This document shows, piece after piece, positions 20,664-39,175 of a DNA stretch of 61,122 nt (positions within the stretch are counted from its first letter, which is position 1; the number at the start of each line of letters is the position of its first letter). The DNA is from an uncultured Ignavibacteriota bacterium. GTDB taxonomy: Bacteria > Bacteroidota > Ignavibacteria > UBA10030 > UBA8401. The notes under the pieces are model-generated. The model saw nothing but the letters and a program-made list of their open reading frames with translations. It had not been told where the DNA came from and made no database searches. Position numbers and translations under genes: made by a program. The stretch is taken from assembly GCA_903861125.1 (NCBI GenBank), contig CAIOTF010000050.1, positions 1 through 61,122 of the forward strand, given 5' to 3'.

Positions 20664-21559
20664 ATTATGTGATTCTATGCCTATAATAGTCTAAGACAAA
20701 TGTACTCATATTATTGATTGCTTGTTCGATCGGATTACTCCATTCTAAATACATATATCCAAAATAATATTTTAGGGAGCCGATTATTAATCGGTCACAA
20801 GATATATTTGTCTCATTTTGTTTTTAATAACCGTATTAAATTGCAATTAATCTTCTCGAATTTGAGACTCGCCACTTTCGAGGTTAAAAATGGGTTAAGA
20901 ATGGATTGCTACATCTAGCACTTTGTCATGTTGCACACTCCCTAGAGCGTTGACAAGATGACAAAATGGGGTGCAGATGGGTCTTCGGAAGGCCACAAAA
21001 TAGGTCTCGGTACGTCTTGAACATATCTCGGAAGGGTCTTAGAACATCCTCAGAAGGTGTCGGAGGTATCTCTGGCACATCTAAAAGCATGACAAGTATA
21101 ATGACAAACACATGTCAAAATAGGTCGGCTGTAAGTTGTTTGTTTAATACCATTTGAGAGAATTGAGTGTTCAGTTTTGCTGTCCAAATTGAACATATAT
21201 CCTCAATTCTCGTTTCCAAATTGAAGTTTTATCCCAAAACTCGACAACATTTTGAACATTTATCCTCGGTTGTCGATGCCAAAATGAATGTTTATCCTCG
21301 AATCACGATAACGTTATAACATTTCGTCTCAACTTCCGTTGCCAAAATGAACATTTGTACTCAATTCCCACTCCAAACCTACCAATGAGCCATCCTTCTA
21401 AATCCGGAAATTTAAAATTTGGGAATCGTTTTATAGGATGGAATTCAAAAAATTATAAAAATATTCTGGCATTACCTGTGTCGATGGATTCCCGTCGTCT
21501 CTCGAAGTAGGAGCTACTCCTGAATCTCCTGTAGGGGGTTAAAGGTTGGGACCCATTTT
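20664..21559. other. Long gene-free spacer with degenerate repeats
   Basis: No convincing gene is present in this stretch of nearly 900 bp. The first part is A+T-rich. From about 20930 to 21110 a G-rich segment carries loose repeats of GGTCTTCGGAAGG-like words. From 21180 to 21370 a second, different degenerate repeat follows (separate entry). The last part (21480-21560) contains TAGGAGCTACTCCT, a small hairpin, before the 95-bp repeat. Confidence 0.5.
21180..21370. repeat. Degenerate tandem repeat, unit about 30-34 bp
   Basis: About six imperfect units follow each other, each containing a version of CCAAAATGAACATTTATCCTC and ending near CAATTCTCGTT. Examples are CCAAATTGAACATATATCCTC, CCAAAATGAATGTTTATCCTC and CCAAAATGAACATTTGTACTC. 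There is no constant spacer and copies diverge strongly, so this is not a CRISPR array. Its function is unknown. Confidence 0.6.
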
Positions 21560-21654
21560 GGTCCTCTTTCGAAAGCAGCAACCTCCCCGCCGAATAGCGG
21601 GAAGGCTTTTAACATTATTATTTCAACAGCATTAATTTCTTTACTCCAACATAA
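21560..21654. repeat. 95-bp repeat, copy 1 (gene 3' end plus terminator)
   Basis: This 95-bp stretch is identical to 24003-24097. It covers GGTCCTCTTTCGAAAG, a GC-rich hairpin and the last 37 bases of the cargo coding sequence at 21618. Perfect identity across non-coding DNA points to recent duplication or gene conversion. Confidence 0.85.
21582..21605 (-). terminator. Terminator of cargo gene at 21.6 kb
   Basis: On the minus strand CCTTCCCGC-TATTCG-GCGGGGAGG forms a 9-bp stem with one U-G pair. It is followed by TTGCTGCTTTC, which is only moderately T-rich. It starts 13 bases after the stop codon. Confidence 0.6.
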
Positions 21655-23921: not shown

Positions 23922-24002
23922 ACGTCCTCCGATTGAAAAAATAAATATAAATACTCTTTAGTTATCGTCATCGACAGAATCTACTTTTGGGTCCCATATT
24001 TG

Positions 24003-24097
24003 GGTCCTCTTTCGAAAGCAGCAACCTCCCCGCCGAATAGCGGGAAGGCTTTTAACATTATTATTTCAACAGCATTAATTTCTTTACTCCAACATAA
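24003..24097. repeat. 95-bp repeat, copy 2
   Basis: Identical to 21560-21654. It spans the end of the esterase gene, its terminator and GGTCCTCTTTCGAAAG. Just upstream on the plus strand GGGTCCCAT also resembles GGGACCCAT before copy 1. Confidence 0.85.
24025..24048 (-). terminator. Terminator of the four-gene cargo operon
   Basis: The same CCTTCCCGC-TATTCG-GCGGGGAGG hairpin as at 21582 begins 12 bases beyond the stop at 24061. It would end the transcript running from 32340. Confidence 0.6.
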
Positions 24098-25926
24098 CTT
24101 CCTGCTTGCAGTTTGTAAAAATAAATTCCTGAACTAAATCCAGAGGCATTCCACGGCACTTCCTTCCATCCCGCAGATTGTACTTCGTTCAAAAGCGTAG
24201 CGATCTCTCTTCCGAGCAGATCGTAGACGCTGAGTTTTACGTTTGCCGATGATGGAAGCGAATATCGAATTGTTGTTGACGGATTGAAGGGGTTGGGGTA
24301 ATTTTGTTCAAGAGAAAAATCTGTTGGAAGCTTGGTGTCCGGAATACCCACACCTGTTGGTTGAATCCGGATCGAAACCGTATCGGTCCATGCCGGAATA
24401 CCTTCGCTGGAAATGGTAAGAAGTAATCGGACAGTTGTTGTTGATGGGCATTGCGGATTGATTTTCACTTCTTGTCGAAAAACACCAAGACTGTCCTTAC
24501 CGGGGGGAAGGTTTCCATAAAATATTGTTGATGTTATCCCCAAGCTAATCATAGTATCCATTGTCGCTACCGTAGTTCCCACATTCCTCACCGTATCAAC
24601 AGTTCCAATATTGCCGAGACGGAATTTCAAACGAAATATATCTCCTGGATTTGGAATTGTATCCGTGGAGGTAAAGACAGCGTTTATAAATTTTACAGGA
24701 CCGTTGGTAAAAAAATATTTGGGTTGTGGCAGAATATGGTATGTACCCCCTTCTGTAAGATCATCAGTCCGTATATTGACGGTGAATCTGTTTTCGGCTG
24801 ATGGAGCAAGAAAGCGGCATCCCCAAATGCTGTCGCCGGGATTTCCGTCTCTATGTAAACCATCATTATATAAGGATACGCTGTCATATCTCAAACCTGA
24901 TACATAATCTATCAATGCAGTGAGCTTGGTTTCGTGCTTCAATGGATTGGAAACGGTGACATTAAGATAGATGCTATCCATGCCAGGACGATAATATGAT
25001 TGATTTAATTTGGCATTGTTCGACGATACTGTAAATCGAGTGTTGATAGCGGGAAATTGTTTGAAGAAATTCCATATCTCTGTAATGGCATCAATGTCGC
25101 GGTTGATGACAGTTGCGCCATTGTATGTAGGCGAACCGGGCCACTCGTGTCCGCCGCCAATAATTCTATAATGGACTACTTGAGATGTATTTGTGGATGA
25201 ACGGAAAATATATTTCACAACCGTCGATTGATCGTTCGGGTTTATATCCGGAATTGATAACATTTCTGCCGGTAAGAAGCAAAAACTCTTGTTCCGCAAA
25301 AATTCTATGGTCGAATCGACAGAAAACAGACCTGTTTTCCCACCATAATACGGAAGTAAATTATCACTGGTGCCGTTAATTGTAAGGACCGGAACGGGTC
25401 TTGTCGTGTTGTAGGATGCGGCAGTACTGTTTGTCAAAACACCTGAAACACTTGCTGCCGATGCAATTCGATTCCCCAGCAGACCTGCGAGTTTCAGGCT
25501 CATAAAACCACCGTTGGAATTACCGCAAACATACACCCTTGAGGTATCAATTTTGTACTTAGAAATAAGAGAATCAATGATCAGAGAAATGAATCCAACG
25601 TCATCGACATTTGGAGTTGGCCAACCCGGATTATCTCCGAGTCCGCTATTCCAGCGTTTGTCAAACGCGTCCGGATAGATAGTAATGAAGCCGACGCTGT
25701 CACCGAGAATATGCGAATGATGATATGTTCGGGCTTCATTAGATGATCCGCCATACCCGTAAAGATTAAAGACAACCGGTAATCCTGCTTGAGCTCCTCG
25801 ACTTTGAGGCAGATAAACGTAACAATCCCTCGCATTTCCTTCCCAAAGGAAATCCCATCGCTCTTGTGAAAACAATAACGGACTGTATAAAAGAACCACA
25901 TGTAAAACAATAAGAAATTGTTTCAT
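24061..25926 (-). CDS. Secreted CE1-type esterase (PHB depolymerase/feruloyl esterase-like), T9SS cargo
   Basis: This 621-residue protein has a signal peptide (LIVLHVVLLYSPLLFS) and an alpha/beta-hydrolase domain of the LpqC/polyhydroxybutyrate-depolymerase type. The nucleophile elbow is CGNSNGG (Ser about 137), with acid candidate GTSDNLLPY (Asp about 188) and catalytic His in GGGHEWPG (about 260). A middle domain of about 270 residues with Ig-like character follows, then a type A sorting domain. The expected reaction is ester hydrolysis on extracellular polymers such as acetylated or feruloylated polysaccharide or polyesters; the exact substrate cannot be told. The start has TGGAGGTCGTATG. 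It lies 14 bp after the serine hydrolase gene and is last in the operon. Confidence 0.85.
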   Translation of the reverse strand: MKQFLIVLHVVLLYSPLLFSQERWDFLWEGNARDCYVYLPQSRGAQAGLPVVFNLYGYGGSSNEARTYHHSHILGDSVGFITIYPDAFDKRWNSGLGDNPGWPTPNVDDVGFISLIIDSLISKYKIDTSRVYVCGNSNGGFMSLKLAGLLGNRIASAASVSGVLTNSTAASYNTTRPVPVLTINGTSDNLLPYYGGKTGLFSVDSTIEFLRNKSFCFLPAEMLSIPDINPNDQSTVVKYIFRSSTNTSQVVHYRIIGGGHEWPGSPTYNGATVINRDIDAITEIWNFFKQFPAINTRFTVSSNNAKLNQSYYRPGMDSIYLNVTVSNPLKHETKLTALIDYVSGLRYDSVSLYNDGLHRDGNPGDSIWGCRFLAPSAENRFTVNIRTDDLTEGGTYHILPQPKYFFTNGPVKFINAVFTSTDTIPNPGDIFRLKFRLGNIGTVDTVRNVGTTVATMDTMISLGITSTIFYGNLPPGKDSLGVFRQEVKINPQCPSTTTVRLLLTISSEGIPAWTDTVSIRIQPTGVGIPDTKLPTDFSLEQNYPNPFNPSTTIRYSLPSSANVKLSVYDLLGREIATLLNEVQSAGWKEVPWNASGFSSGIYFYKLQAGSYVGVKKLMLLK

Positions 25927-25940
25927 ACGACCTCCAATAA

Positions 25941-28511
25941 TTATTTCAAAACCATCATTTTCTTCACTTCAACAAAACTTCCAGTGGTCAACTGGTAAAA
26001 ATATATTCCCGACGACACTCTGCCGGCATTCCACTCCACTTCTTTCCACCCCACCGATTGTTCTTCGTTCACGAGTGTTACCACCTCGCGTCCGAGCAGA
26101 TCGTATATTTTTAAACTGACTTTACTGATAACTGGTAACTGATAACTGATCACTGTTGTTGGGTTGAATGGGTTGGGGTAGTTTTGTGCTAAATAAAAAT
26201 CCGTCAGTGTTGCGTTGTGAGCAACTGATGTAAGTTTTAATGAGAACTCAAACACATCGGCTGAAGTGAAAGGTTTTAACGTTTTGAAATAAAATTGGTC
26301 TCCGACTACGGGCTGGATATTTGGTGTTGACGGATAGAATGCAATACCCCAAGATAATGCCAGAGTTCCGGTTGAATCCGGTTCCAGAATGTGTAATTCA
26401 TCATACGATGAGATCGTGTTATTCCCGTCACCATCCATAAACAACACTTTTGTTTTTCTGTTCTTGGTAACATTTTTCACCTGGAATTTCATGAACGCTG
26501 CCGGTATTTCATAGATTGCAATCGAGGTATCTATGACGCTATTATTAAGAGTGATTGTATAATCGTAGGGAAGAGCGCGAGCCGTTACGGTCGTCGATCC
26601 GATGGCTCCTTCAAAAAGGTATGGACGGCCTTCCAAATTCGATGAGCCGGTGACCCATTTTGTATTTTTGACATCAGCTCTTATCTTTGCAGCATCCCCA
26701 ACCACAAGGCGAAGGCCATCAAAGAGAGGGCCAGGTGTGATGCCGTCAAATGGACCTGCGTTCAATACTTTCACCGTCCCGCCGAGTGTTATATCGCGAA
26801 CGGTATAAACATTATTTGCAAACGAACTGTCATCAATCGTCATACGGTAAAGATGGTCTGTTGTTTGCGATTTGTCCACGATCATAATAGAAACGGTCCC
26901 ATCCCCCAATCCCTGAACATGGTTCGCGTTCTTAAGCACCGAAAATTCAATATTTCTTACAATGAGCGAAGTATCGACGATATTCTTTGAACGTATCTGA
27001 ATTTTAGGTTTATACACCTTGCTAGTTACCAGAAGGGACGTCTTTATTCTTATTGTAATTGTTTTTGATGAATCAACCGGTAAAACAAATATACTGTCAG
27101 AGAGTGAAATCGCTGATGGGATGTTCACATTCTGATAATCGAAGTTGATATAGACAGAATCATCAGCAAAACCTCTGTTCGTCAGAATGATGCTGGTATC
27201 TTTTTGTGGTGTATTGTAATCGATGCCTCCAAAATTAATCCCTTTGCTTGTATCGATATTGACAGTAAGCCGAGGACTCGCTTTGTGGAAATACTCCGCC
27301 TCAATTGCCAGTTGAGCGGATATTTCGAGAGTTGCAGTTTCGTACAATCTTAAATCACGAGAATTACAGAATACTGAAAGAGCAACACTATCCTTTGGTA
27401 CATAATACATCGTCGTCAAATAGCCCAACGTTCCTCCGGTGTTGCCCCAAAACTCTTTACCCCCAATAAAGGAACGAAATAACCCAAAACCATAATCAAA
27501 AATTTCAAAGGCGTGTGCCGGAACGAATGACGTCATCTCCTTAAACGAAGAGGCACTCACAACTTTCCCTTCCATTAGTGATTTAATCCAACGAGCTGTA
27601 TTTTCCGGTGTTGAAAAAATAGCCCCTGCTGCCCAGCCTTGGCTGTAAAATCCGTTTCGTGAACGATTAAGAAAAGCGTCCATGAGAAGAGAACTTCCAA
27701 GAGGGATACCAAACCATTCGTGCGCAATAGTGTCGGGAGAACTCTCAAAGGGCATCAAATATGTGTGCGTCAAACCAAATGGAGTGAAAAAGCGACTTCG
27801 GATATTATTTTGATATGTATTCTTCGTCAGTTTTTCAATAATCATTCCAAGAAGCACATAGTTGGTATTGGAATACCCCCACGATGATCCTGCGACAAAA
27901 CTAGGAGCTTTGACATAGAATGTAATAACTTCTTGGGGAGTCCATATTCGTGTTGGATCATTTAGCACATTATTAAAAAAAGACGTAAAACCTGAATTCA
28001 TGTAATCATCAATTCCGGCTGTCATATTCAGAAGTTGTCTTATAGTGATGTTGCTGTCAATGTTGGCATATTTTGGAAGGAATTTATGAATTGAATCGCT
28101 TAAAGAAAGCTTCCCTTCTTCCACAAGTCTCATGATTGTTGCTGCCGTAAAGGATTTTGTAATGCTCCCTATTCCCATCACCATGCTTGGTGTCAGCGCT
28201 ATATTTGAATCAGAACTTGAATATCCGCTGGCGCCGACCCACGTGTCTCCGTTCGGTAAAATAACAGCGGCTGAAACGCCTTGATATTTAATTGTTTTAT
28301 CTAAAATTGTTTGAAGTCTTTTTGCAAGTATTGGGGTAACAGATTTACTCGAAACATTTTGAAGTGGAATATTCGCAGACTGCCCAAAAGAGATTGTAGC
28401 CATGATGAGAAAATACAATAGCATTCGTACGGATGGTTTCGATTTATTGATTGAGATGTGACGTTGCATTGTTCCACTGTTAGCATTTCGCAAAACCTGA
28501 CAATTATCCAT
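25941..28511 (-). CDS. Secreted class C beta-lactamase-fold serine hydrolase, T9SS cargo
   Basis: This 856-residue protein has an N-terminal beta-lactamase/DD-peptidase-fold domain. The catalytic SxxK is SITK (about 116-119, within MGIGSITKSFTAATI), YxN is YSN (about 213-215), and a later GNTGGTLGY stands in for the KTG-like HxG box. This fold includes DD-carboxypeptidases, esterases and EstB-like enzymes, so antibiotic resistance should not be assumed. The C-terminal half is beta-rich and includes a dockerin-like or calcium-type DGDGNNTISSYDEL segment (about 695-708), then a type A sorting domain. The start has CGGAGGCCGTATG. It is in a four-gene operon with gaps of 17 bp and 14 bp. Confidence 0.85.
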   Translation of the reverse strand: MDNCQVLRNANSGTMQRHISINKSKPSVRMLLYFLIMATISFGQSANIPLQNVSSKSVTPILAKRLQTILDKTIKYQGVSAAVILPNGDTWVGASGYSSSDSNIALTPSMVMGIGSITKSFTAATIMRLVEEGKLSLSDSIHKFLPKYANIDSNITIRQLLNMTAGIDDYMNSGFTSFFNNVLNDPTRIWTPQEVITFYVKAPSFVAGSSWGYSNTNYVLLGMIIEKLTKNTYQNNIRSRFFTPFGLTHTYLMPFESSPDTIAHEWFGIPLGSSLLMDAFLNRSRNGFYSQGWAAGAIFSTPENTARWIKSLMEGKVVSASSFKEMTSFVPAHAFEIFDYGFGLFRSFIGGKEFWGNTGGTLGYLTTMYYVPKDSVALSVFCNSRDLRLYETATLEISAQLAIEAEYFHKASPRLTVNIDTSKGINFGGIDYNTPQKDTSIILTNRGFADDSVYINFDYQNVNIPSAISLSDSIFVLPVDSSKTITIRIKTSLLVTSKVYKPKIQIRSKNIVDTSLIVRNIEFSVLKNANHVQGLGDGTVSIMIVDKSQTTDHLYRMTIDDSSFANNVYTVRDITLGGTVKVLNAGPFDGITPGPLFDGLRLVVGDAAKIRADVKNTKWVTGSSNLEGRPYLFEGAIGSTTVTARALPYDYTITLNNSVIDTSIAIYEIPAAFMKFQVKNVTKNRKTKVLFMDGDGNNTISSYDELHILEPDSTGTLALSWGIAFYPSTPNIQPVVGDQFYFKTLKPFTSADVFEFSLKLTSVAHNATLTDFYLAQNYPNPFNPTTVISYQLPVISKVSLKIYDLLGREVVTLVNEEQSVGWKEVEWNAGRVSSGIYFYQLTTGSFVEVKKMMVLK

Positions 28512-28528
28512 ACGGCCTCCGTAAAATT

Positions 28529-30598
28529 TTATTTCAACAACATTAATTTCTTTACTCCAACATAATTGCCCGCTGTCAGCTTATAAAAATATATTCCCGA
28601 CGACACTCCGCCAGCATTCCACACCACTTCCTTCCATCCCGCAGATTGTTCTTCATTCACGAGCGTTGTAATTTCGCGACCGAGCAGATCGTAGACTGCA
28701 AGTTTTACGTTCGCGGTTGATGGAAGCGAGTAGCGTATTGTTGTTGCTGGATTGAAGGGGTTGGGGTAGTTCTGAGCCAGCACAAATGTTTGCGGCATAA
28801 TGTATTCACTCTTTACTCCTGTTCCATCATGCGAGCCCTGAACGCGTCGGAACCCGGAATTGTATAGGCGACCGGACGGGTCGAATTCGACGCGACTGAC
28901 CACCCGGCAACTGACCCCATCACGGCCGTCGAACGAACCGCCCCGAAGCAACCGGTAGCCTTGTGTTGTAGACGGACCTTTTGGATCAATCGTCCCGCCC
29001 GAGGGATACGCTGAGCCATACCAATCCCAGCACCACTCCCACACATTGCCGCTCATATCATAGATGCCGAGTTCGTTCGACTGCTTTGTACCAACGGAGT
29101 GCGTTGTACTACCGGAATTTATGTTATACCATGCAACATCATCGACGGTGTTGCTGCCGCTGTAAATGAAAGGCGGAACGTGTGCTTGCGTGCCTCCCTT
29201 TGCGGCAAATTCCCATTCTGCTTCAGTTGGGAGACGGTAACCATTGGCTGTCCATTTCACGGCATCCACATTGATATTAAGTTCTCCCCTGCGATAGACT
29301 GTATCTTGTGCGCTTCTTGTGTAATAAACCGGTGTAAGTCCGTCTTTCTCAGAATGAGCGTTGCACCACTTCACAACATCATACCAGTTCACTTCTGTCA
29401 CTGGATTGTTTGTTCCAACAGGATTGTATCCGTTTCTCCCTACCGCAATTGTATCGGTTTCTGCATAACCATGTGTCAATGCCCAATTGCGCACCTCTGT
29501 CCACAACTCATTGGTTACTTCGTATTTGTCCATTTTGAAACTGCTGATTGTAACAGAAGTTGTCCCTGCAGTGAATGTGCCGCCGTCTACTGGAACCGCA
29601 GTAGTATTAACCGTCTGTCGAAAAAGAGAATCAGCCCAAACCAACAATGACGAAGCATGTCCGGAATTGAAATCGTGACCAAACGTATGTGCTCCATAAT
29701 TGTGCGTAATGCCCCATGATTTCAGTGAATCGCTGAAATCTCTGCTCATGGCATACAATGATATGAATGAATCATTCGAGCCTGCCCTGATATACATATT
29801 CATTGAATTGGACGGTTTATGATTGACAACAAAATATTGCCGTGCCAGTGTGAAAGCATCGGTTCGCAGACACGACCCGAAAATCGAGTCACGCAGCTGT
29901 CCGGTTCCTTCGACGAGAGGGAATTGGCACTTGTACGGATTTGTCGTATCAGGCGAGAATGCGCTTGCAAATCCCCAGCCCACATAGGTATAAGGTTTCG
30001 CCGCGTTCGGAGGGGTGTAGATAAAGTTGGGACTTTCAGTTGTGTTAATATATTTGAAGATTTCAGTCGCGCGTTCAAACATAATGTCGCCGCAGAACGA
30101 GGCAAATCCGGAGAAGATTTCTGGTGAAGCAAGTGCGAGCCGTGCAGACCCGCCGCCGCCCATTGAAAATCCGCCGAGAATCCAATACCTGCGGTCGAGT
30201 TTTACCGGATATTCTTGTTTGATCCATTGAACTAGGTCTTTAACGATGTAGTCGCCATGCTTTCCATTGACTGGTGAATTTGCAAAATATGTCCGGGTGT
30301 AAATTCCGCCGCTGCCGTCGGGAACAACAATGAGCATACGTTTCACCTGATTAGCGTTTAATAATGATGTCAGCGCAGAGTTGAACATATTGAATTCGCC
30401 CGGTGCCATCGTCCATCCCGGCAAAAAAATCAGTACCGGGCATGGCGATGCAGCAGAGATCGAATCAGGTTTATGCACGACAACAGTCCGGTTTTGATTC
30501 AGACTTTCGCTGAAGAACTGGCGGGTCTCGGTTGTTACTTGAGCGAAAAGATGCGTAGAGATTACAACACACATAATAAACATTAATACTTTCTTCAT
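28529..30598 (-). CDS. Esterase fused to a formylglycine-generating-enzyme-like (SUMF1) domain, T9SS cargo
   Basis: This 689-residue protein starts at an ATG preceded by TGGAGGTCACT. A signal peptide (MKKVLMFIMCVVISTHLFAQ) leads into an alpha/beta-hydrolase domain of CE1 type with nucleophile elbow GGFSMGGGG (Ser about 145). It is followed at about 340-600 by a complete-looking FGE-sulfatase/SUMF1-like domain (MDKYEVTNELW, GYRLPTEAEWEFAAKGG, DMSGNVWEWCWDWYG, LRGGSFDGRDGVSCRVVSR, GFRRVQ), then a type A sorting domain. The fold is shared by sulfatase-maturing enzymes and many non-catalytic or substrate-binding proteins; I do not see the paired catalytic cysteines clearly, so activity is uncertain. 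The fusion of these two domains on one secreted chain is unusual. Confidence 0.85.
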   Translation of the reverse strand: MKKVLMFIMCVVISTHLFAQVTTETRQFFSESLNQNRTVVVHKPDSISAASPCPVLIFLPGWTMAPGEFNMFNSALTSLLNANQVKRMLIVVPDGSGGIYTRTYFANSPVNGKHGDYIVKDLVQWIKQEYPVKLDRRYWILGGFSMGGGGSARLALASPEIFSGFASFCGDIMFERATEIFKYINTTESPNFIYTPPNAAKPYTYVGWGFASAFSPDTTNPYKCQFPLVEGTGQLRDSIFGSCLRTDAFTLARQYFVVNHKPSNSMNMYIRAGSNDSFISLYAMSRDFSDSLKSWGITHNYGAHTFGHDFNSGHASSLLVWADSLFRQTVNTTAVPVDGGTFTAGTTSVTISSFKMDKYEVTNELWTEVRNWALTHGYAETDTIAVGRNGYNPVGTNNPVTEVNWYDVVKWCNAHSEKDGLTPVYYTRSAQDTVYRRGELNINVDAVKWTANGYRLPTEAEWEFAAKGGTQAHVPPFIYSGSNTVDDVAWYNINSGSTTHSVGTKQSNELGIYDMSGNVWEWCWDWYGSAYPSGGTIDPKGPSTTQGYRLLRGGSFDGRDGVSCRVVSRVEFDPSGRLYNSGFRRVQGSHDGTGVKSEYIMPQTFVLAQNYPNPFNPATTIRYSLPSTANVKLAVYDLLGREITTLVNEEQSAGWKEVVWNAGGVSSGIYFYKLTAGNYVGVKKLMLLK

Positions 30599-30612
30599 AG
30601 TGACCTCCAAAT

Positions 30613-32340
30613 TTATTTCACAACCAAACATTTTTTCGTTTCAACAAAACTTCCCGCTGTGATTTTATAAAAATATATTCCCGACGACACAGTGCTCGCA
30701 TTCCACGGCACTTCCTTCCATCCCGCGGATTGTTCTTCGTTCACGAGCGTTACGATTTCGCGCCCAAGCAGATCGTATAAAGCCAACTTTACGTTTGCGG
30801 ATGATGGCAATGAATACCGAATTGTAGTGAATGGATTGAAGGGGTTAGGGTAGTTCTGTTCAAGACCGAACTGCATAGGCAAGTCAACGTTGTTATCCTG
30901 AACAGAATTTGGTGTTTGAATATACATTATCGTTGTGTAGACACTTCCGTCAGTTCCTGTGCTTGTCCCTGATACATATACATTTCCCGAAGCATCAACA
31001 CGGATCCCGACCGGATAGCTTGATCCGTTTGCGTATCGATATTTTGCACTCCACTCCTCGTTGCCATTAGTGCTGTATCGGATAGTAACAATACTGCTAT
31101 CGCTGGATCCTGTCACATACACATTTCCGCTGCCGTCAAGCGCGAGAGAGATGGCCCAGTCATCGTGATTCGTCGATCCGTTGTATCTTCTTGTCCAGAG
31201 GGTGTCTCCGTTGGAGTTGTATTTGATCGTTACGAAGTCATACCCAGTGTTTGGATTATTACTACTACCTGTGACATAGACATTTCCACTTCCAACGACA
31301 GCAAGGGAAGTAGCATAATTACGACCATTACCCGATCCGTTGTATCTTCTCACCCAGAGCGTATCGCCATTGGAGTTGTATTTGATCGTAGCGTAATCCG
31401 ATGAGGAATTAGAGACCCAACTAAAACCCGTGATGTAGACATTTCCGCTCCCGTCAACGGCAATTGAGGAAGTAGGACTATTATTATATATCCTTACCCA
31501 CATCGTATCTCCCGCAGAATTGTACTTGATCAACTCGCAGTCTGCAGTAAAGCTGATGAGACTGGTGTTTGCCGTGACATACACATCCCCGTTTGCATTA
31601 ACGACAATGGAGACGGGTTCGGGAGAAGAGAACCTCCCCCCTTGGAACTTCCTCACCCAAACCGTATCACCCACAGAGTCATATTTAATTGTTGTGTTGT
31701 GAGCATAGCTCCAAACGGTGCCGCCAACCCCACCATCACCCGTGATGTATACATTCCCGTAGCCGTCAACAGCAAGGGCATTTGCAACATCACTAGAATT
31801 TTCCGGATCATTGTAGCGCCGCACCCAGGTTGTATCTCCCTGTGGATTATATTTAATCGTGGCGTAGTCCAAATTCGTTCCTGAACCACCACTGCCGCCC
31901 GTGATGTAGACATTTCCACTTCCATCCACAGCAAGGGAAGTTGCATAGTCACGACCGTTGCCCGGACCATTGTATCGACGTTGCCACACCACAGCACCAT
32001 GGGAATTATATTTTATTGTTGCATAATCTTCGCCGCTTTCGCCTGTTACATAGACGTTTCCTGCATTGTCCACAACAAGATCGTTTGCCCGATCAATTGA
32101 CGAAACAAGTCCGGAACCGTAATGCCGCACCCACGCAGTGTCCACAATAGAAGACGTTTTGGAAAAGGAGTGCTGATTAGGCGCTGAATGAGTGCTGGTT
32201 TTCTCCCACGGCTTTTTTTGCATATGCGAACGAAGATAGTTTTCTTTTCGCGATTGTACATTCTGGTCTTGAATATTTTGTGCAAAGAGAAAATGAGGGA
32301 CAAAAAGAAAGATGGCAATAAATTGTAAAAAGTGTTTCAT
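30613..32340 (-). CDS. SBBP-repeat beta-propeller protein, T9SS cargo
   Basis: This 575-residue secreted protein begins with a signal peptide (QFIAIFLFVPHFLFAQ). It contains at least seven copies of a propeller repeat whose core is DGSGNVYVTG followed by YDYATIKYNSNGDTLWVRRY-like strands, the SBBP/seven-bladed propeller repeat typical of Ignavibacteria cargo. A type A sorting domain ends the chain (NYPNPFNPFTTIRYSLP, YDLLGREI, SSGIYFYKI). No catalytic motif is visible; ligand or polymer binding is inferred. It is the first gene of the four-gene operon with hydrolases, and its start has CGGAGGTTGTATG. The in-frame blades are similar at DNA level, so copy number may vary between strains. Confidence 0.87.
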   Translation of the reverse strand: MKHFLQFIAIFLFVPHFLFAQNIQDQNVQSRKENYLRSHMQKKPWEKTSTHSAPNQHSFSKTSSIVDTAWVRHYGSGLVSSIDRANDLVVDNAGNVYVTGESGEDYATIKYNSHGAVVWQRRYNGPGNGRDYATSLAVDGSGNVYITGGSGGSGTNLDYATIKYNPQGDTTWVRRYNDPENSSDVANALAVDGYGNVYITGDGGVGGTVWSYAHNTTIKYDSVGDTVWVRKFQGGRFSSPEPVSIVVNANGDVYVTANTSLISFTADCELIKYNSAGDTMWVRIYNNSPTSSIAVDGSGNVYITGFSWVSNSSSDYATIKYNSNGDTLWVRRYNGSGNGRNYATSLAVVGSGNVYVTGSSNNPNTGYDFVTIKYNSNGDTLWTRRYNGSTNHDDWAISLALDGSGNVYVTGSSDSSIVTIRYSTNGNEEWSAKYRYANGSSYPVGIRVDASGNVYVSGTSTGTDGSVYTTIMYIQTPNSVQDNNVDLPMQFGLEQNYPNPFNPFTTIRYSLPSSANVKLALYDLLGREIVTLVNEEQSAGWKEVPWNASTVSSGIYFYKITAGSFVETKKCLVVK

Positions 32341-33091
32341 ACAACCTCCGATATACCGACGGAATAGTGCCTGATTAGTGGTTCAACATATGTATAAGTA
32401 GGTCTTTTCTGTTAGCTCTATTGGTGCAAAAAATACCACTGGTGATGCATTCTTCATTTTTGATGTGCTTTAAAGACAGATCAACGATGAATTAATCTTT
32501 TTTCCACTGTAAATTAACTCACCGTATAATACTTCAGCACTTATTTTTAGCAACAAAAAAACCTCTTTCTTCGCACTCGGCGAATCCAGAGGTTATTGTG
32601 AAATAAATAATGACAAGAATCTGAATCTCAGGATTCTGTTACCAATATTTTGAAGAAAAGTAGAAATTCTGACGACTGCATGCAATAGAAAACATTAATA
32701 GAATCAAGACAATTGTGTCCTAATTATTTATTGTTAGCATTTTAGGATTTTCGTACCAGTAAGGAAAGGCTTTGGGCAATATCCTTCTACGAGGACGACT
32801 TCGCCATTGTCAGTTCGCCAAATCCCCATAGTTTCGTGGCAATGTCAAAGTGAAGTTCGACAGTTTGACAAAATGTACGGGGTTTCAAGTGTGGCGAAGT
32901 GTCATAGTTTGGTCGTTGAAAACCAAAAGAAGCCTTAGATAAAAAAATAAAAAAATTCCTATAGAAACTTGGTCTTATCCAGAATCGTGGGATTTGTTTC
33001 CCGGTCTCCGTCGAGAGGCTCAGGCGGGTAAGGAGTTAGGTACCGTGTCCGGTTGAGGCTCCGAAACGGGTCCTCTTTCTGGGTCCCATAA
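32341..33091. other. Gene-free spacer upstream of the cargo operon
   Basis: No gene is recognised. The first 150 bases should hold the promoter for the 30.6-32.3 kb operon. The middle contains a strong orphan terminator-like hairpin (separate entry), and 32780-32930 carries loose repeats of words such as AGTTTCG, AGTTCG and GACAAAATG. The end has GGGTCCTCTTTC, also found beside the 95-bp repeats. The layout resembles the spacer at 20.7-21.6 kb. Confidence 0.5.
32554..32594 (-). terminator. Orphan terminator-like hairpin
   Basis: On the minus strand AACCTCT...AGAGGTT with an inner stem TTCGC/GCGAA is followed by TTTTTTG. The nearest minus-strand stop codon upstream is more than 550 bp away and has its own terminator, so this one may end a small RNA or a lost gene. 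Confidence 0.6.
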
Positions 33092-33124
33092 ACACAAAAG
33101 CCTGCCGGGGTTACCAGCAGGCTT
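33092..33124 (-). terminator. Terminator of the 1318-residue cargo gene
   Basis: On the minus strand AAGCCTGC-TGGTAACCCCG-GCAGGCTT is followed by TTGTGTTT. It begins 21 bases after the stop codon at 33146. Confidence 0.8.
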
Positions 33125-33145
33125 GAGTTGGAACTTTAAGAGATT

Positions 33146-36100
33146 TTATTTTAAATACATCATCTTCTTCACATCAACAAAACGGTTGCGAGAACCATCG
33201 GTTGGTGTTGCTTCAATACGATAAAAATAGACTCCGCTTGCTAATCGTGTTGAATTGAACGGAGTTGAATATGTTCCCGCATTGACGATCTCGTTAACCA
33301 GCGTTGCAACCTCCCTTCCCAGTATATCATAAATTTTCAGACTGACCTTGCTGTTCATCGGCAGTTGATAATTGATCATTGTTGTTGGGTTGAACGGATT
33401 GGGATAATTTTGGGAAAGAGCAAACGATGATGGTATTGTTCCATTACGCTCTACTCTCGTCACTTGATCCATATTAATACGTATTCCCCATCCTTTGAGT
33501 GTGGCATTCTGTTGAAGATTGCTGGAGTGTATCGATAAAATCCACTTCCCTTTAACGCTCGAAGAATTAAATTTCTTCAATGGTGAAAATGGATTGTAGT
33601 TCAATGAAAAATTTGCACTTTTTCTGTCCCCAAGAACAAACGGTGCATTATCACTGAACCGACAATCGATAATTGCTGTCCCTTCGTGTTGGTAAAAGAG
33701 TGTGTCAATAATACCATTGTGTGCTAATGTCATCAAAATATTTTTTGTTGAATGCGAAAGTGATAAAGAATCAATATCAACAACAATATTCTTCACGGCC
33801 ATTCCACCGAGTGAATCTGCAATCGTTATTGTATCAGACATTGTTCCATTTGCTAACATTCGATGCAATGAATAACGTTTAAAGCGTGCAGGCAGTGTGT
33901 TCACATTGTCATACTCTTTGCGTGGTGAATGAATGTATATATTATTTTTTTCATCAGAGGAAACCAAATAGAGAGAATCATTATATCTAAGTGGTTGTGA
34001 ATATTGATAATCTTTAAAAAAAATCGGAGGTGTCGGATCAACTTCCCATGTTATCCCTTGATCAGTACTATATGAAATTTGTTCAGCAATTATTGATGTG
34101 AGTATGGTTGAATGCCGTGCTTTGGACATTGTATATTGAGATGGATCTACTGTTCGCTTTTCCCACGATGTCCCACCATTTTCTGTCCGGTATTCTCTAG
34201 GATGGAAAGAATTATTGTTGAACAAAACAGCATTATTATTGTCGAAAGCGTAGAATATCATTGAATAACCATCGTCTAAAGAAAATTTACTTCTGATCCA
34301 ATCCTTTCCATTATTTTCAGAATTATACACTTCAATATATCTGTCGATTCCATTTGTATACACAACCCAGATAACCTCTTGATTAGTCGAAATGAATTCT
34401 TGAAAATCGCCATATTCATAATTAACAATTGGAAGTGCAATCGTATCCCATTCAACGCCGGCATTTTTGGTTTGATACAGTGTTCTATTTGTCCAATCAA
34501 CATTATTTGTATAGACAAAGAATGTGTGATCTTCAGATAATCCAATTTGGCGAATACGTTTAGCAGTATCTGGCAAGAGAACTGAGTGCCAAGAATTTCC
34601 TTTATCATCTGAATATCGGAAGGTTTTGCCGTCTTTCCTGACAAACCAGTTTGCATGAGCATCAAACTGCCAAAGGCCATTTTGTCCGCCAGTATCAGCC
34701 ATAACCCATGTAGTACCTCCATTCGTAGTTTTTAATATTTCACCTGAACCCCATGGCGGCGAAATGGCTTCTTCCAATGTAAATGGAATCGTCTCCGAAT
34801 AATTGATTTGCGGGGAGACAATTGTTCTTCCATCTTTTCGTATCTGGACAATGGCTCCACCTTCACCTACTCCGGTCATTACAACTCCGCTTAGGAATAC
34901 CGAGTACAGTTTTTTCGAACCCATGTTGTAAGTCAGATATCGATCTAATACGTCACCTTTATTTCTGATGTATACCACGAAAGATCCATCATTTCCAACA
35001 GCTATATAATTATCCATTTTGTTGGTATTATTCATTGATGAGAGCTGTATCGGAGGAATACTTACCAACTCAACATAACTTTTATTAAATGATCGATGAT
35101 ACGCTTTGATGGCATCACCACATAAGTACACAACAGAACCAAGTTTTAACAACGATTTAATATTTTGACCGATGATTGATGGGCTGACTAATTCTGTCCA
35201 TGCTGCTCCTTTTGACACTCCCTCAAGCACAATCCCCAAATCGCCCACAGCAATGAACTCCACACCCGGATCATTGTATGAATAAAATGAGACATCCTTT
35301 AATGAAGCATTGGTATTGAAATTATTTGACACCCATGAATTTCCCCAATTATGGGAGACATGGATCGTACCGCTGGTTCCGACTGCAACCATATTTCCCA
35401 GCGTGTCCCAGTCGATACCATACAGCGTTTGAACACCAACATTATCGTCAACAACATTCCAAGTCGTTCCGCCATCTTTTGTTTTTAAAATATAGCCTTG
35501 TCCTATAATAAATCCGGAATCGGCATTGTAAAATTTTACTTTTTGAAAATCGGAAACCACGGGTGAGGCAACTTTTGTCCAGCTGGCACCGCTATTTGAT
35601 GTCCTCAGAATGGTAGAACTATCGCCGACAATGAATCCATTTTTTTGATTCGTAAAATATACACTACGCAGGTCGGCCGTGGTTCCCGATGCAACGGAAA
35701 CATAGGGCGTTTGTAATCCTTGTCCACCTCCATTTCCTCCCGGATCCGTCGGCGTTGTCGGTGCAACCTGAATTTTACTTATCCATACCACCGCTTTACT
35801 TTTTGCATAGCCACTCACCCCCAAAGCAATGTATGAACCATTCCCTTTGAACAAGTGCGACGGATACTCCTGGCTGACACCGGGAGAGGCATACATTGCA
35901 TAACCATTCCAAGCTCCCGAAGGTGTAAATTCAAAAAAATAATATGAACCCTCCGTAGAAAAAACTTGCGGTTTTGCAATTCCGGAAACAGCGAGATAGC
36001 CTCCCTGGTCGACAGATAGATTGTAGATCGACGAATAATTTCCGGAGCCAAAGTTTCCAACATACGTACTCTCCGCTCCATTAAAACGAAATACTCTGGC

Positions 36101-37102
36101 AATTACCGATGAGGCTGAAATTGTTTTTCCGGCGCCAACATAGACCCCTCCGTTATTATCGGCGGCGATCTTCGCCCCGCTGCTGTTGATCATCCGTTCC
36201 CACTGAAGCGCACCCTGCGAATTATATTTTCTCACCCTTCCGCCGACATCGAATGAAATAAAATGACTATATCCCATAAAAATATTTCCGGCCGCATCAA
36301 TATCCATAGCTGCGGCTTCTACACTTATCGTTTTGAGTGAAAAATTTGTGATCCATTGCGGAGGATTCATTACTCCGCCGGCTGCCGGTGCATATTTTAA
36401 TAATTTAGAGCCGGCAATGTACACAGTCGTATCAAAACGAGATTTATAGGAAACTGAAACGTATATATTGTTGAGCTGATCAATCTTCATTTGGCCGATA
36501 CCAATATCTCCGAATTCAGCCGGTGCAGCCGAAAGACCACTGATCGTTGTGTCCATCCAACGCCGATCACCGTTCGGTGAATAGGATAACATCATCAAAT
36601 ATGCCTGAAAGTTTCCTTCTCCGTTTAACTGTTCATGTGATGTGGCAATACAAACATTCCCATCTCCATCAATATCAATAAGAGTATTTCCTTCCCGATA
36701 GTTCTCTTGCGGAAGTGACAAAATGAGTTTCTTTGCCCAAAGACTGTCACCGGTCGGAGAGTATTTTGTCAGTGTTAGCTTCTTTTGATCATCGTTGGTA
36801 ACAACATATGCATTACCACTCTTGTCTGCTGCAAGCCAATATTTATACGTTATCTGATTTGACAGCGGTGTCTCGCGAATGAGCGTTCCAACATTTGAAT
36901 ATTTACTTAAAGTAATTCCGTACGAACTACCGCCAAAAGTAACGGTATAAATATTTCCGGAATAATCTCGTGCAGCATCGGACAATTGGATAGTACTGTC
37001 GGGGTTGGTTTTTGTTGTTGTCCACAGCATTTTAGGCTGTGAAAAAACAGAAGAAATGGAAACAAGCAAGAAACTAAACAGAAGTGGTAAACGACAGAAC
37101 AT
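33146..37102 (-). CDS. Very large propeller protein with P domain, T9SS cargo
   Basis: This 1318-residue secreted protein has a signal peptide (LPLLFSFLLVSISSVFSQ). An N-terminal propeller region has SBBP-like blades (DAAGNIFMGYS, DNNGGVYVGAG). A middle region carries Ycf48/BNR-type blades (TSNSGASWTKV, KDGGTTWNVV, TTNGGTTWVM, SDDKGNSWHSV). Near 1130-1235 there is a segment like the proprotein convertase P/homo-B domain (IADSLGGMAVKNIVVDIDSL ... GKWILSIHSSNLQQNATLKG then WGIRI). A type A sorting domain ends the chain. Proteins of this make-up are extracellular; binding or polymer interaction is more likely than catalysis, since no protease triad is present. It is transcribed alone. The start has only a modest GAGG 10 bases upstream. 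Confidence 0.83.
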   Translation of the reverse strand: MFCRLPLLFSFLLVSISSVFSQPKMLWTTTKTNPDSTIQLSDAARDYSGNIYTVTFGGSSYGITLSKYSNVGTLIRETPLSNQITYKYWLAADKSGNAYVVTNDDQKKLTLTKYSPTGDSLWAKKLILSLPQENYREGNTLIDIDGDGNVCIATSHEQLNGEGNFQAYLMMLSYSPNGDRRWMDTTISGLSAAPAEFGDIGIGQMKIDQLNNIYVSVSYKSRFDTTVYIAGSKLLKYAPAAGGVMNPPQWITNFSLKTISVEAAAMDIDAAGNIFMGYSHFISFDVGGRVRKYNSQGALQWERMINSSGAKIAADNNGGVYVGAGKTISASSVIARVFRFNGAESTYVGNFGSGNYSSIYNLSVDQGGYLAVSGIAKPQVFSTEGSYYFFEFTPSGAWNGYAMYASPGVSQEYPSHLFKGNGSYIALGVSGYAKSKAVVWISKIQVAPTTPTDPGGNGGGQGLQTPYVSVASGTTADLRSVYFTNQKNGFIVGDSSTILRTSNSGASWTKVASPVVSDFQKVKFYNADSGFIIGQGYILKTKDGGTTWNVVDDNVGVQTLYGIDWDTLGNMVAVGTSGTIHVSHNWGNSWVSNNFNTNASLKDVSFYSYNDPGVEFIAVGDLGIVLEGVSKGAAWTELVSPSIIGQNIKSLLKLGSVVYLCGDAIKAYHRSFNKSYVELVSIPPIQLSSMNNTNKMDNYIAVGNDGSFVVYIRNKGDVLDRYLTYNMGSKKLYSVFLSGVVMTGVGEGGAIVQIRKDGRTIVSPQINYSETIPFTLEEAISPPWGSGEILKTTNGGTTWVMADTGGQNGLWQFDAHANWFVRKDGKTFRYSDDKGNSWHSVLLPDTAKRIRQIGLSEDHTFFVYTNNVDWTNRTLYQTKNAGVEWDTIALPIVNYEYGDFQEFISTNQEVIWVVYTNGIDRYIEVYNSENNGKDWIRSKFSLDDGYSMIFYAFDNNNAVLFNNNSFHPREYRTENGGTSWEKRTVDPSQYTMSKARHSTILTSIIAEQISYSTDQGITWEVDPTPPIFFKDYQYSQPLRYNDSLYLVSSDEKNNIYIHSPRKEYDNVNTLPARFKRYSLHRMLANGTMSDTITIADSLGGMAVKNIVVDIDSLSLSHSTKNILMTLAHNGIIDTLFYQHEGTAIIDCRFSDNAPFVLGDRKSANFSLNYNPFSPLKKFNSSSVKGKWILSIHSSNLQQNATLKGWGIRINMDQVTRVERNGTIPSSFALSQNYPNPFNPTTMINYQLPMNSKVSLKIYDILGREVATLVNEIVNAGTYSTPFNSTRLASGVYFYRIEATPTDGSRNRFVDVKKMMYLK

Positions 37103-37238: not shown

Positions 37239-37266
37239 TAAAAAAAAGAAAGGCTCACGCCCTTCT
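37239..37266 (-). terminator. Terminator of the zinc-ribbon gene
   Basis: On the minus strand AGAAGGGC-GTGA-GCCTTTCT (8-bp stem with one G-U pair) is followed by a run of seven T. It begins about 47 bases after the stop codon at 37313. Confidence 0.8.
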
Positions 37267-37312
37267 TTCTGTCTACAGCATTTGCTCCAAGGCCTTTTCG
37301 GAATGCCATCAC

Positions 37313-37546
37313 TTATATAATCGGCACTGGAAACGCTGGACGATTACCACAATATTCACAATCAGCGCTTCCACATTCGCTGTCTAGCCATATGTTGCAC
37401 ACGGGACAAAACAGACCATCGTATTCTTCGTGATATATTTTTTGAAAGCCACATACTGGACATTTCTCATTGCGCCACGGGAAACCAAAGATTTTATGAT
37501 CCCCGATGTATATGATATTTTGTTCTTCAAAATATTTAATATCCAT
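37313..37546 (-). CDS. Small protein with three CxxC knuckles
   Basis: This 77-residue protein has CPVC at about 29-32, CPVC at about 47-50, then CGSADCEYC near 58-66. The eight or so cysteines suggest one or two zinc ribbons, as in small proteins with a double rubredoxin-like knuckle. The ATG has AAAGGA upstream. It follows the sigma-like gene on the same strand, separated by a perfect hairpin, and is probably co-transcribed with it. The family is not recognised. Near the attR end of the island, small zinc proteins often act as regulators or adaptors of element functions, but nothing in the sequence proves this. Confidence 0.65.
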   Translation of the reverse strand: MDIKYFEEQNIIYIGDHKIFGFPWRNEKCPVCGFQKIYHEEYDGLFCPVCNIWLDSECGSADCEYCGNRPAFPVPII

Positions 37547-37562
37547 TTCTATATTCCTTTCT

Positions 37563-37588
37563 GAAGAGAGTGCGTGAACACTCTCTTC
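37563..37588. promoter_or_regulatory. Perfect hairpin between sigma-like and zinc-ribbon genes
   Basis: GAAGAGAGTG-CGTGAA-CACTCTCTTC has 10-bp arms and no T-run. It lies between the stop of the upstream gene and the Shine-Dalgarno of the downstream gene, so it may be an intercistronic processing or stability element. The following CTGTCTACA word recurs after the hairpin at 37247-37266. Confidence 0.6.
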
Positions 37589-37592
37589 CTGT

Positions 37593-38096
37593 CTACATCA
37601 GATACATTTCTGCTTTACTTGCGAGGCCGTGTCGGAAAGATTTAAACTGCGGATTGGAGATATGCTGGCGAGTAAGGATTTCTTTTGCCGTATAACCGGT
37701 TGAGAGATCTTCCAATATAGTCTCCTCTTGATCGGACAGACTATTGAGGAAGTCGTTCGTGATCGCGTAATCGAGCGGAGTCGTGTATGTGTTGAGCACA
37801 ACGTCTCCAACTGTTCTTGATTCACCAGATGATAGCGGTTGTTCAAGATGCACTCGGTTCGGTCTGTTGTATGCGTCGATAGTTCTCCTTCCGACTTCTT
37901 TTGCTGGAAATGCTGAACGAATATTTAATTCCTTCGAACGATAATGCATATGCGACTTCATCAATCCCAGTGTGCAGCGATCTCCAAGTCTCACTCCTTC
38001 TTTCCACGCCATCGTGATCAACTCTGATCTTTGAAGTTTATCTCTAGTGAACTGCTCTGAATAATTCCACAACGTTTGGTATTCCTGTTCGGACAT
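37593..38096 (-). CDS. Divergent sigma-70-like factor
   Basis: This 167-residue protein has the architecture of a small sigma factor. An N-terminal helical region is sigma region 2-like (LWNYSEQFTRDKLQRSEL, ITMAWKEGVRLG). A linker with EQPLSSGESRTVGDV resembles the region 3-4 linker of phage and RpoD-like proteins, where a similar acidic-S motif precedes region 4. The C-terminal helix-turn-helix is region 4-like (FLNSLSDQEETILEDLSTGY then TAKEILTRQHIS). Sequence identity to classical factors is low, so the call rests on layout. The start is strongly supported by CAAGGAGGAATT before the ATG. It lies on the island near attR, opposite coupled micro-ORFs across a palindrome-rich promoter region, and could direct RNA polymerase to island promoters. 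Confidence 0.6.
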   Translation of the reverse strand: MSEQEYQTLWNYSEQFTRDKLQRSELITMAWKEGVRLGDRCTLGLMKSHMHYRSKELNIRSAFPAKEVGRRTIDAYNRPNRVHLEQPLSSGESRTVGDVVLNTYTTPLDYAITNDFLNSLSDQEETILEDLSTGYTAKEILTRQHISNPQFKSFRHGLASKAEMYLM

Positions 38097-38132
38097 AATT
38101 CCTCCTTGTGAATGGATGTGAGTATAGACTTT

Positions 38133-38252
38133 CGTGATATGTTCTTATGCCCGAATATCACGCACATCTGATCATCAAAGAGTAAACGGTCTCGCTCCTT
38201 CCTCGCTTAACCGTTCACCTGTTCTTATACCTCGTTATAAATGGTATAAGAA
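38133..38252. promoter_or_regulatory. Dyad-rich divergent control region
   Basis: Between the sigma-like gene (minus) and the micro-ORFs (plus) are CGTGATAT/ATATCACG (38133-38140 and 38155-38162), AACGGT/ACCGTT (about 38187-38215), and the perfect 10-bp pair TTCTTATACC/GGTATAAGAA (38222-38231 and 38243-38252). GTTCTTAT also occurs as a direct repeat at 38141 and 38221. This is the expected make-up of operators at a divergent promoter. Confidence 0.55.
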
Positions 38253-38300
38253 AAAGAGCGAGCAAATATAATTGGTACAGATTATTCAGGAAGGAAACGT

Positions 38301-38366
38301 ATGGGAAATATTGTAAAGGTGATCATCACCATAATCGTAACGATCTGCAAACGGAGGATTAAATGA
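38301..38366 (+). CDS. 21-residue hydrophobic micro-ORF
   Basis: MGNIVKVIITIIVTICKRRI plus K: a single hydrophobic helix with a basic end. It has AGGAAGG 5-6 bases before the ATG, and its stop overlaps the next start as ATGA. Short membrane-active peptides look like this, but it may also be just a coupling leader for the next gene. It is too short for composition tests. Confidence 0.4.
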   Translation: MGNIVKVIITIIVTICKRRIK

Positions 38367-38533
38367 TACTCGATCCAAAAATAAATATTGCACTGGACAT
38401 CATTGAGACAATAATTAAGACCATCAAGACGGTACCAGAGGAACCAAACACGGACGAAGAGAAAGAAGAAATGCTTGCGGAATTTCTGAGGTTAGGGACG
38501 ATTCTGGTCATTCAGAAAGCGAAGAACATATAG
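38363..38533 (+). CDS. 56-residue acidic small protein
   Basis: This protein starts MILDPKINIALDIIETII and has a charged middle (EEPNTDEEKEEMLAEFL). It is predicted to be helical and amphipathic. CGGAGG lies 6 bases before its ATG, and it overlaps the preceding 21-residue frame by 4 bp. A good terminator follows 9 bases after the stop. Together these make it a credible small gene. The size and charge resemble small antitoxins or anti-sigma or anti-restriction peptides, but the family is not recognised. Confidence 0.5.
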   Translation: MILDPKINIALDIIETIIKTIKTVPEEPNTDEEKEEMLAEFLRLGTILVIQKAKNI

Positions 38534-38541
38534 ACTGTTCG

Positions 38542-38569
38542 CCCCAGTGCACGCTGGGGTGGATTTTTT
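38542..38569 (+). terminator. Terminator of the micro-ORF pair
   Basis: CCCCAG-TGCACG-CTGGGG is followed by TGGATTTTTT. It starts 9 bases after the stop codon of the 56-residue frame, which supports a real short transcript. Confidence 0.75.
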
Positions 38570-38650
38570 ACCGTTATAGGTACGCGCAATCGTTTAAATT
38601 TGCGATTTAAGGAATGATAATGGGCCAGCCATGACATTCACCATTGCCGG

Positions 38651-38791
38651 ATGAGTGTGGCGTACGGGGCATATTTAAAAGGAATTTATGGTTCAGAAGG
38701 AGAAGGATCTATTGATGATTTTGAGGATACTTGGGAACTGTGTGATAAATGTCTTTCCGCTTACGATGTTCAATTTGATTGGCATGACTAG
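38651..38791 (+). CDS. Possible 46-residue small protein
   Basis: This open frame begins MSVAYGAYLKGIYGSEGEGS and contains a CDKC knuckle near residues 31-34. It ends FDWHD. No good Shine-Dalgarno sequence is seen before the ATG, so it could be a remnant of a longer gene or chance. The protein-like composition (acidic, aromatic residues, paired cysteines) is the only support. Confidence 0.3.
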   Translation: MSVAYGAYLKGIYGSEGEGSIDDFEDTWELCDKCLSAYDVQFDWHD

Positions 38792-39130: not shown

Positions 39131-39175
39131 TCACACGCGAAAGGTCGTAGGTTCAAGTCCTACAACGTCCACAAA
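39131..39175 (+). repeat. Right attachment repeat (attR)
   Basis: This 45-bp stretch is identical to 18269-18313 and holds the 3' part of tRNA-Val without its 5' half, so no tRNA can form here. It is the displaced original tRNA end created by island insertion. Confidence 0.92.

Follow-up and report, generated by a model that had tools for sequence, protein, structure and literature searches.

A sigma-like gene and its back-to-back half-sites as a putative switch of tRNA-associated integrative elements

Plasmid pBS32 of Bacillus subtilis encodes SigN (ZpdN), a weakly ECF-like sigma factor that activates its own promoter, is triggered from a LexA-repressed SigA promoter and has a regulon on pBS32 in which homologs of DNA replication genes are found (PMC6751061). 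The locus described here would resemble this system in having a weakly ECF-like, sigma-like factor on a mobile replicon and a motif before its own gene and, in some elements, before gam and primase genes. It differs in that SigN resides on a plasmid of a Gram-positive host, whereas the present relatives lie on chromosomal, tRNA-associated elements mostly labelled Ignavibacteria, and in the back-to-back paired site, which is present here and is not mentioned in the passages of PMC6751061 consulted. With ECF sigma factors (group 4), the 167-residue protein shares its size (about 165 aa), the sigma2-linker-sigma4 layout of its model and the autoregulation suggested by the motif; unlike them, it falls below all curated cut-offs, no −35 motif was found and an anti-sigma partner is without support. 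The elements themselves are like tRNA-targeted integrative elements and phage satellites such as tycheposons (compare PMC11389934): a tyrosine integrase and att repeats at a tRNA 3′ end are present in the window, a D5/DUF5906 primase and a Mu-Gam-like protein occur in larger elements, and the cargo is variable and includes defence genes. Unlike tycheposons and phage satellites, they carry a resident sigma-like switch, and in the open-access literature searched we found no report of a sigma factor on such integrative elements.

The window, i.e., the whole stretch of 61,122 nucleotides analysed, contains an island with att repeats at a tRNA 3′ end and a truncated integrase, the hallmarks of a tRNA-targeted integrative element (Table 1). 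An integrase also adjoins a tRNA in L073 and L075. The window integrase corresponds to residues 5-233 of its 362-aa counterpart in the C7 element, the ORF of which is uninterrupted, and a search of the window for relatives of primase or gam found none; since the integrase is truncated and neither of these genes was found, the window island is probably immobile by itself. The sigma-like gene, the zinc-type gene and the ATGA-coupled 21- and 56-residue ORFs near attR are all where the earlier note had placed them. The inverted repeats that it had seen between the genes are real as well, and they resolve into a palindrome, a further half-site and a pair of arms; the + strand half-site of the palindrome points to the micro-ORFs, and the inverted repeat formed by the arms recurs in G411 and in no other of nine upstream regions compared. 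Of the terminator that had been assigned to the micro-ORF pair, the hairpin can be seen, while the terminator scan as a whole did no better than chance (2 found, 1.6 expected). The hairpin and T-run 3′ of the zinc gene are absent from the output of this simple scan. No Pfam model exceeds its cut-off for the 77-aa Cys-rich protein. An RNA hairpin in the sigma-side leader was not clearly above shuffles in any locus compared; the leader folds in L018, L019 and L021 and weakly in C7, and no clear fold is seen in the window, C37, L017 or L020. A 46-aa ORF at 38651-38791 was rejected as a conserved gene, its frame being interrupted by stops in the nearest relative, L017.

Table 1. Positions of the island features and of the regulatory module in the window
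Feature	Position	Strand
tRNA-Val, integration target	18235..18310	+
attL, perfect 45-bp direct repeat at the 3′ end of tRNA-Val	18269..18313	+
Tyrosine integrase, C-terminus missing; positions 3-74 of 172 of Phage_integrase matched	18402..19124	+
Seven large cargo ORFs, read as secreted-type; homologous C-terminal ends recur among them	19137..37102	-
Hairpin followed by T-run 3′ of the zinc gene, probable terminator ahead of the cargo	37240..37271	-
Cys-rich protein, 77 aa, two CPVC motifs, zinc-ribbon-like	37313..37546	-
Strong hairpin lacking a U-run, between the genes for the sigma-like and zinc proteins, −17.1 kcal/mol	37563..37588	-
Putative divergent ECF-like sigma factor, 167 aa	37593..38096	-
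Half-site on the sigma side, GGCATAAGAA, 45 nt 5′ of the sigma-like start codon	38142..38151	-
Inverted repeat, arms GTAAACGGT (38182-38190) and ACCGTTCAC (38210-38218), extra stretch between half-sites	38182..38218	.
Outward half-site pair (palindrome), GGTATAAGAA on each strand, 11 bp between	38222..38252	.
Micro-ORF 1, 21 aa, hydrophobic with basic C-terminus, 3′ of a Shine-Dalgarno-like site	38301..38366	+
Micro-ORF 2, 56 aa, ATGA-coupled to micro-ORF 1	38363..38533	+
Terminator-like hairpin (12 pairs, 38537-38564) and T-run, 3′ of the micro-ORF pair	38537..38569	+
attR, perfect 45-bp direct repeat	39131..39175	+

The 167-aa protein marks a family of homologous tRNA-associated integrative elements. 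Its own genome (4.19 Mb) has three intact copies, namely those of the window and of contigs C37 (83% identity) and C7 (62%), together with a degenerate copy on contig C49 and weak matches elsewhere; the distance to a tRNA gene is about 1.5 kb for C37, 4.4 kb for C7 and 0.3 kb for C49. Carriers make up 3 of 22 genomes of the family and, by profile search, 12 of 98 genomes of the order, several of the copies being broken, and a single-sequence search of a phylum sample matched one genome in 395, which was the own genome. Searches of 72,556 plasmid records and 50,697 phage records and two scans of viral contigs gave no relatives. A bacterial genome collection yielded six loci on five contigs, all from metagenome bins, with the labels Ignavibacteria, Ignavibacteriae and Ignavibacteriales and, for one contig, Bacteroidia; two of the elements, L019 and L021, share a single contig, and L017, L020 and L022 were taken to be the same as the G411 and G400 matches and counted once. 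Among the genes 3′ of the sigma-like gene in L019 and L018 are those for restriction-modification and for a reverse transcriptase with a CARF protein. The sigma-like gene is under purifying selection, with a dN/dS of 0.07-0.26 in 18 of 21 pairs and saturated dS in the other three, dS exceeding 1 throughout.

Assignment of the protein to a class was attempted at the level of both sequence and structure. The earlier note had called for a sigma profile match, and at the level of curated models this failed: no sigma cut-off was passed in Pfam (all seven members) or NCBIfam (window protein), Sigma70_r2 matched none of the seven members, and a PHROGs search with the window protein alone gave no match up to E 1. 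Below the cut-offs, Sigma70_r4 reached a best E of 0.01 (two of seven members), Sigma70_r4_2 an E of 0.018 (one of seven) and PHROG_351, annotated as "RNA polymerase sigma factor", a best E of 2.2e-4 over residues 83-155 (three of seven members at E ≤ 1). The Pfam sigma models are outscored by GerE, a LuxR-type helix-turn-helix, which is matched by all seven members with a best E of 1.5e-4 and which on the window protein reaches E 0.0085 and 16.1 bits against a cut-off of 23.5, short of membership. The best match of the seven-sequence profile in the PDB is DevR (E 8e-4), with RpoD at E 0.031. In an hhalign comparison with 16 sigma-family proteins of the same genome, the profile scored 32.0 and the best of 100 column shuffles 20.7. 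The profile is thus related to sigma factors beyond chance, although hhalign itself gives a probability of 45% and the alignment is confined to region 4; regions 2 and 4 had aligned together in an earlier set that included one wrong ORF.

The AlphaFold model of the protein is of middling confidence (pLDDT 67.5, pTM 0.38), and a second model built from seven sequences was no improvement (pLDDT 64.7). Helices are predicted at residues 3-13, 20-40 and 43-61 and, after a low-confidence linker, at 107-119, 122-133, 137-144 and 148-166, suggesting a sigma2-like domain (1-63), a linker to about residue 105 and a sigma4-like domain to residue 167. Nine of the twelve best Foldseek matches carry the name of an ECF-type sigma factor (SigL, SigH, RpoE), and the remaining three are initiation-complex chains F with the sigma unnamed; they align over 164-174 columns with a best E of 8.8e-3, all E values being above 0.001, and the top ones have a whole-chain TM of about 0.32 and an rmsd of 17-25 Å. 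Taken separately, the two halves superpose better: VIA-align placed residues 1-63 on region 2 of SigJ (60 aligned, 2.2 Å, Z 7.5) and residues 93-167 on region 4 of SigF (68 aligned, 2.0 Å, Z 9.5), with the proviso that a Z below 8, or below 13 for helical bundles, may reflect a common arrangement. The fold, the weak profile matches, the hhalign score above shuffles and the conserved promoter-like motif described below together argue for the sigma reading, and for the compact control module with a sigma-like gene that the earlier note had seen here. The protein is a proven member of no known sigma family; it is probably a very divergent two-domain (sigma2 and sigma4) ECF-like sigma factor, far from known families.

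The supposed operators turned out to be outward-facing half-sites, GGNATAAGA[A/T]. Upstream of the sigma-like gene, the common pattern is TTCTTATACC ... GGNATAAGAA, i.e., two outward half-sites between the sigma-like gene and its divergent neighbour, in which the sigma-side boxes read GG[A/C]ATAAGAA or near and the divergent-side boxes GGTATAAGA[A/T] or near. In the window and L017, there is, about 80 bp beyond a tight 11-bp pair, a third half-site adjoining the sigma-like gene. One such −10-like box lies just upstream of the sigma-like gene in 15 of the 16 copies whose 5′ end is present. The motif was defined on eight loci and held up in a test on eight later copies that belong to other families and match from residue 1: seven (L049, L050, L052, L053, L054, L058 and L059) show the half-site on the sigma side, with the pair complete in five, L053 being cut by the contig end and L054 being without a partner. 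Some of the seven are truncated or broken further down. At five held-out loci, the sigma-like gene is accompanied by an integrase and primase or gam was undetected, most of the contigs being partial. The half-site was sought and not found at L056, a weak match (residues 1-43, E 4.6e-6), and at the copies without a 5′ end (L051, L055, L057, L060, L062 and the C49 relic). The exact paired pattern occurs at three loci in the own genome, each adjoining a copy, and in 2 of the 22 family genomes, both of them carriers, with 0 matches for the reversed control; the carrier G400 (L020), whose versions have one mismatch, escapes the exact pattern. Judged by comparison with relatives, the half-sites are above chance. 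Their spacing is either 8-12 or 22-24 bp, with nothing in between among 13, a grouping that may reflect evolutionary history rather than function since the loci are related.

The position of the boxes is consistent with a promoter. On the divergent side, the end of the motif lies 16 nt (C7), 18 nt (L049) or 21 nt (C37 and L019) from the start codon, with a Shine-Dalgarno-like site in between; with as little as 16 nt to the start codon, the boxes suit a −10 and not a −35 element. No −35 element above shuffles was found, which counts against the sigma reading, the best hexamer occurring in 12 of 26 compared with a shuffle maximum of 14. Boxes without a listed inverted partner stand ahead of two gam operons, that of L019 (exact) and that of C7 (GGTATAAGAT); a box also lies upstream of the C7 primase. 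When 250-nt upstream stretches were compared, using a list compiled once hits had already been seen, 3 of 13 core starts outside the divergent site scored at least 13.8 bits, as did 1 of 19 cargo or zinc starts, with 0.002-0.003 expected per start or stretch from shuffles and host DNA. The motif is missing at the other 10 of the 13 core starts, including three of four primases and all six recombinases or integrases tested. Further good half-sites lie within genes or elsewhere (window 40435, L018 12386, L020 10498), and seven matches of at least 13 bits were found in L072, L075, L077 and L078. These data support a core regulon with an autoregulated switch, the regulon being partial. For the cargo of the window, which the earlier note had expected to be driven by the sigma factor, the picture is different: none of the seven genes has a half-site within 250 nt upstream, and the best scores at their starts, −3.2 to 3.1, compare with a training range of 13.1-17.5. 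A 103-aa cargo gene of L019 has a half-site 52 nt upstream. A shared cargo promoter motif was also searched for de novo and rejected, as only AT-rich words emerged; the excess of 8- and 9-mers over shuffles means little, given that three of the seven segments examined fall within the homologous gene before them.

Behind the divergent box, the first frame preceded by a Shine-Dalgarno-like site has 21-30 codons in 7 of 13 loci (window, L017, C7, L021, L049, L050 and L059), an apparent recurrence in which L059 is counted by its 22-codon ATG version. By reading, these frames are hydrophobic or amphipathic with a mostly basic C-terminus. Five of the seven have another short frame behind the first (56 aa in the window and in L017, 33 in C7, 28 in L050 and 44 in L059), and C7 and L059, although from different families, have by eye a motif in common, G-x-I/L-I-V-K-I/V-x-I-I-I-C-x-G-G. 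The gam operon of L019 also opens with a frame of like style, of 29 aa and ATGA-coupled to gam. At the same position, C37 and L019 encode a 112-aa protein and L018 a DUF932 protein, and L020, L052 and L058 have no clear candidate frame behind the divergent box. Between the window and L017, the 21-aa ORF differs by 0 synonymous changes and 2 in changed codons and the 56-aa ORF by 4 and 13, too few in either case to judge selection. The 21- and 56-residue pair fits the apparently recurrent micro-ORF set behind the half-sites. In the 22 family genomes, clear relatives of the 56-aa protein (E < 1e-17) are confined to the own genome and G411. Since other genes take its position in other elements, the sigma-like protein does not regularly go together with the 56-aa protein, and the proposed role of the latter as a sigma-binding anti-sigma factor is unsupported.

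The main rival to the sigma reading is a conventional regulator that would bind the same half-sites as a dimer through a C-terminal helix-turn-helix and repress or activate promoters of the housekeeping sigma factor in both directions. It would account for the GerE matches of all seven members, for DevR as the best sequence match in the PDB and for half-sites that are inverted and fall into two spacing classes about one helical turn apart. However, spacings that range from 8 to 24 bp and single half-sites before two gam operons for which no inverted partner is listed speak against it; in addition, GerE stays under its cut-off for the window protein, and the N-terminal half of the model matches sigma2 folds. 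We consider a dimeric regulator unlikely, if still credible.

It is also imaginable that GGNATAAGAA is the operator of another regulator, of the element or of the host, and that the sigma-like gene is only a neighbour. The motif overlaps the region in which each gene probably starts, which would fit an operator, but the divergent gene varies from element to element, the sigma-like gene is the sole constant neighbour seen, and away from sigma-like genes the exact pair was not found in the own genome or the family, which makes this explanation improbable. Very improbable, finally, is the scheme in which the sigma-like factor drives the cargo operons with the 56-aa protein as its anti-sigma factor: the absence of the motif at all seven window cargo starts, the hairpin and T-run between the sigma operon and the cargo, the 112-aa, DUF932 or other short frames in place of the 56-aa ORF in other elements and the narrow distribution of its relatives all argue against it, and what speaks in its favor is the position, the divergent arrangement and the single L019 cargo gene.

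In sum, we favor, with a probability of roughly 60%, an autoregulated sigma switch for the core genes of the element itself, not for its cargo. In this model, the 167-aa protein, with sigma2 and sigma4 as its only domains, would direct the host RNA polymerase to the −10-like GGNATAAGA[A/T]. Two back-to-back elements 8-24 bp apart would serve both the sigma-like gene, in a positive feedback loop, and the divergent operon. This operon frequently opens with a micro-ORF or a pair of them and, in some elements, continues into replication genes; single boxes would serve other core operons, i.e., gam in two elements and primase in one. Once turned on by its trigger, the switch would amplify itself and express core functions, with the cargo under other promoters. 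More tentatively, these elements may form an undescribed class of chromosomal integrative elements of Ignavibacteria that would be controlled by their own sigma factor through a single-box, back-to-back divergent promoter, the firing of which would produce hydrophobic, mostly basic micropeptides of 21-30 aa, encoded immediately behind it, early in the life cycle; we see this as a possibility rather than an expectation.

The module is real, conserved and functional-looking, and the earlier sigma guess is probably right. Mobile islands are usually seen as controlled by repressors or helper activators. By analogy, a sigma-like switch would be a counterpart of SigN on chromosomal integrative elements of another phylum. 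The elements supply a candidate sigma factor of great divergence, together with micropeptides that can be tested, and the half-site motif would provide a way to recognise element core genes in uncultured bacteria. If true, an element-linked promoter signature would offer a direct means of following when these islands become active.

All seven cargo genes of the window's island have homologous 122-nt ends, which we take to encode the type IX secretion C-terminal sorting domain, and several of these genes are adjacent or overlapping, as in an operon. At L018, a locus with a related element, the cargo adjoining the sigma-like gene comprises a CARF-domain protein and a reverse transcriptase of the RT-Protease/RT-TIR type, together with two more proteins without a PADLOC match in this stretch; this cargo looks like an unfamiliar defence operon. 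In the related element on contig C7 of the window's own genome, the 150-aa protein encoded in coupling downstream of the micro-ORF pair had no Pfam match at an E value of 0.01 and, on our reading, resembles a papain/C39-type cysteine peptidase. The 77-aa zinc protein has a broken relative (68%) on this contig, located beyond the element's integrase.

The half-sites, conserved outward-facing promoter-like boxes next to the sigma-like genes, are spaced 8 to 12 or 22 to 24 bp apart at the 13 paired loci, with no intermediate values. Further good half-sites at five related loci are possibly additional members of the proposed regulon, or chance occurrences.

Positions of features in the window and at related loci
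Feature	Locus	Position
Seven cargo genes	Window	19137-37102
Sigma-like gene to 56-aa ORF, compared with L017	Window	37593-38533
Partial att copy	Window	39284-39328
Gene for 150-aa protein	L008	8957-9409
Cargo, putative defence	L018	10891-18582
Broken zinc-protein relative	L065	G000:C7:73244-73432
Further half-sites	L072	2868, 6699, 15489
Further half-sites	L075	7315, 15018
Further half-site	L077	11245
Further half-site	L078	7508
Further half-site, preceding 103-aa gene	L019	8734

A third, partial copy of the att repeat (62%) lies beyond attR, with the tRNA end kept over 20 bases, and is possibly a scar left by an earlier neighbouring element. Contig CAILKW010000498.1 carries two related elements of the sigma-like family, L019 and L021, with one end close to a tRNA-Asn; L019 has a serine recombinase and L021, by reading of the sequence, a similar gene. 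We regard the pair as accretion at a single tRNA.

Between the window and the related locus L017, DNA identity is 90% in the 56-aa ORF and only 71% in the adjoining sigma-like gene. Judged from this comparison, the step is a mosaic boundary, which suggests that the sigma-like gene has been exchanged.
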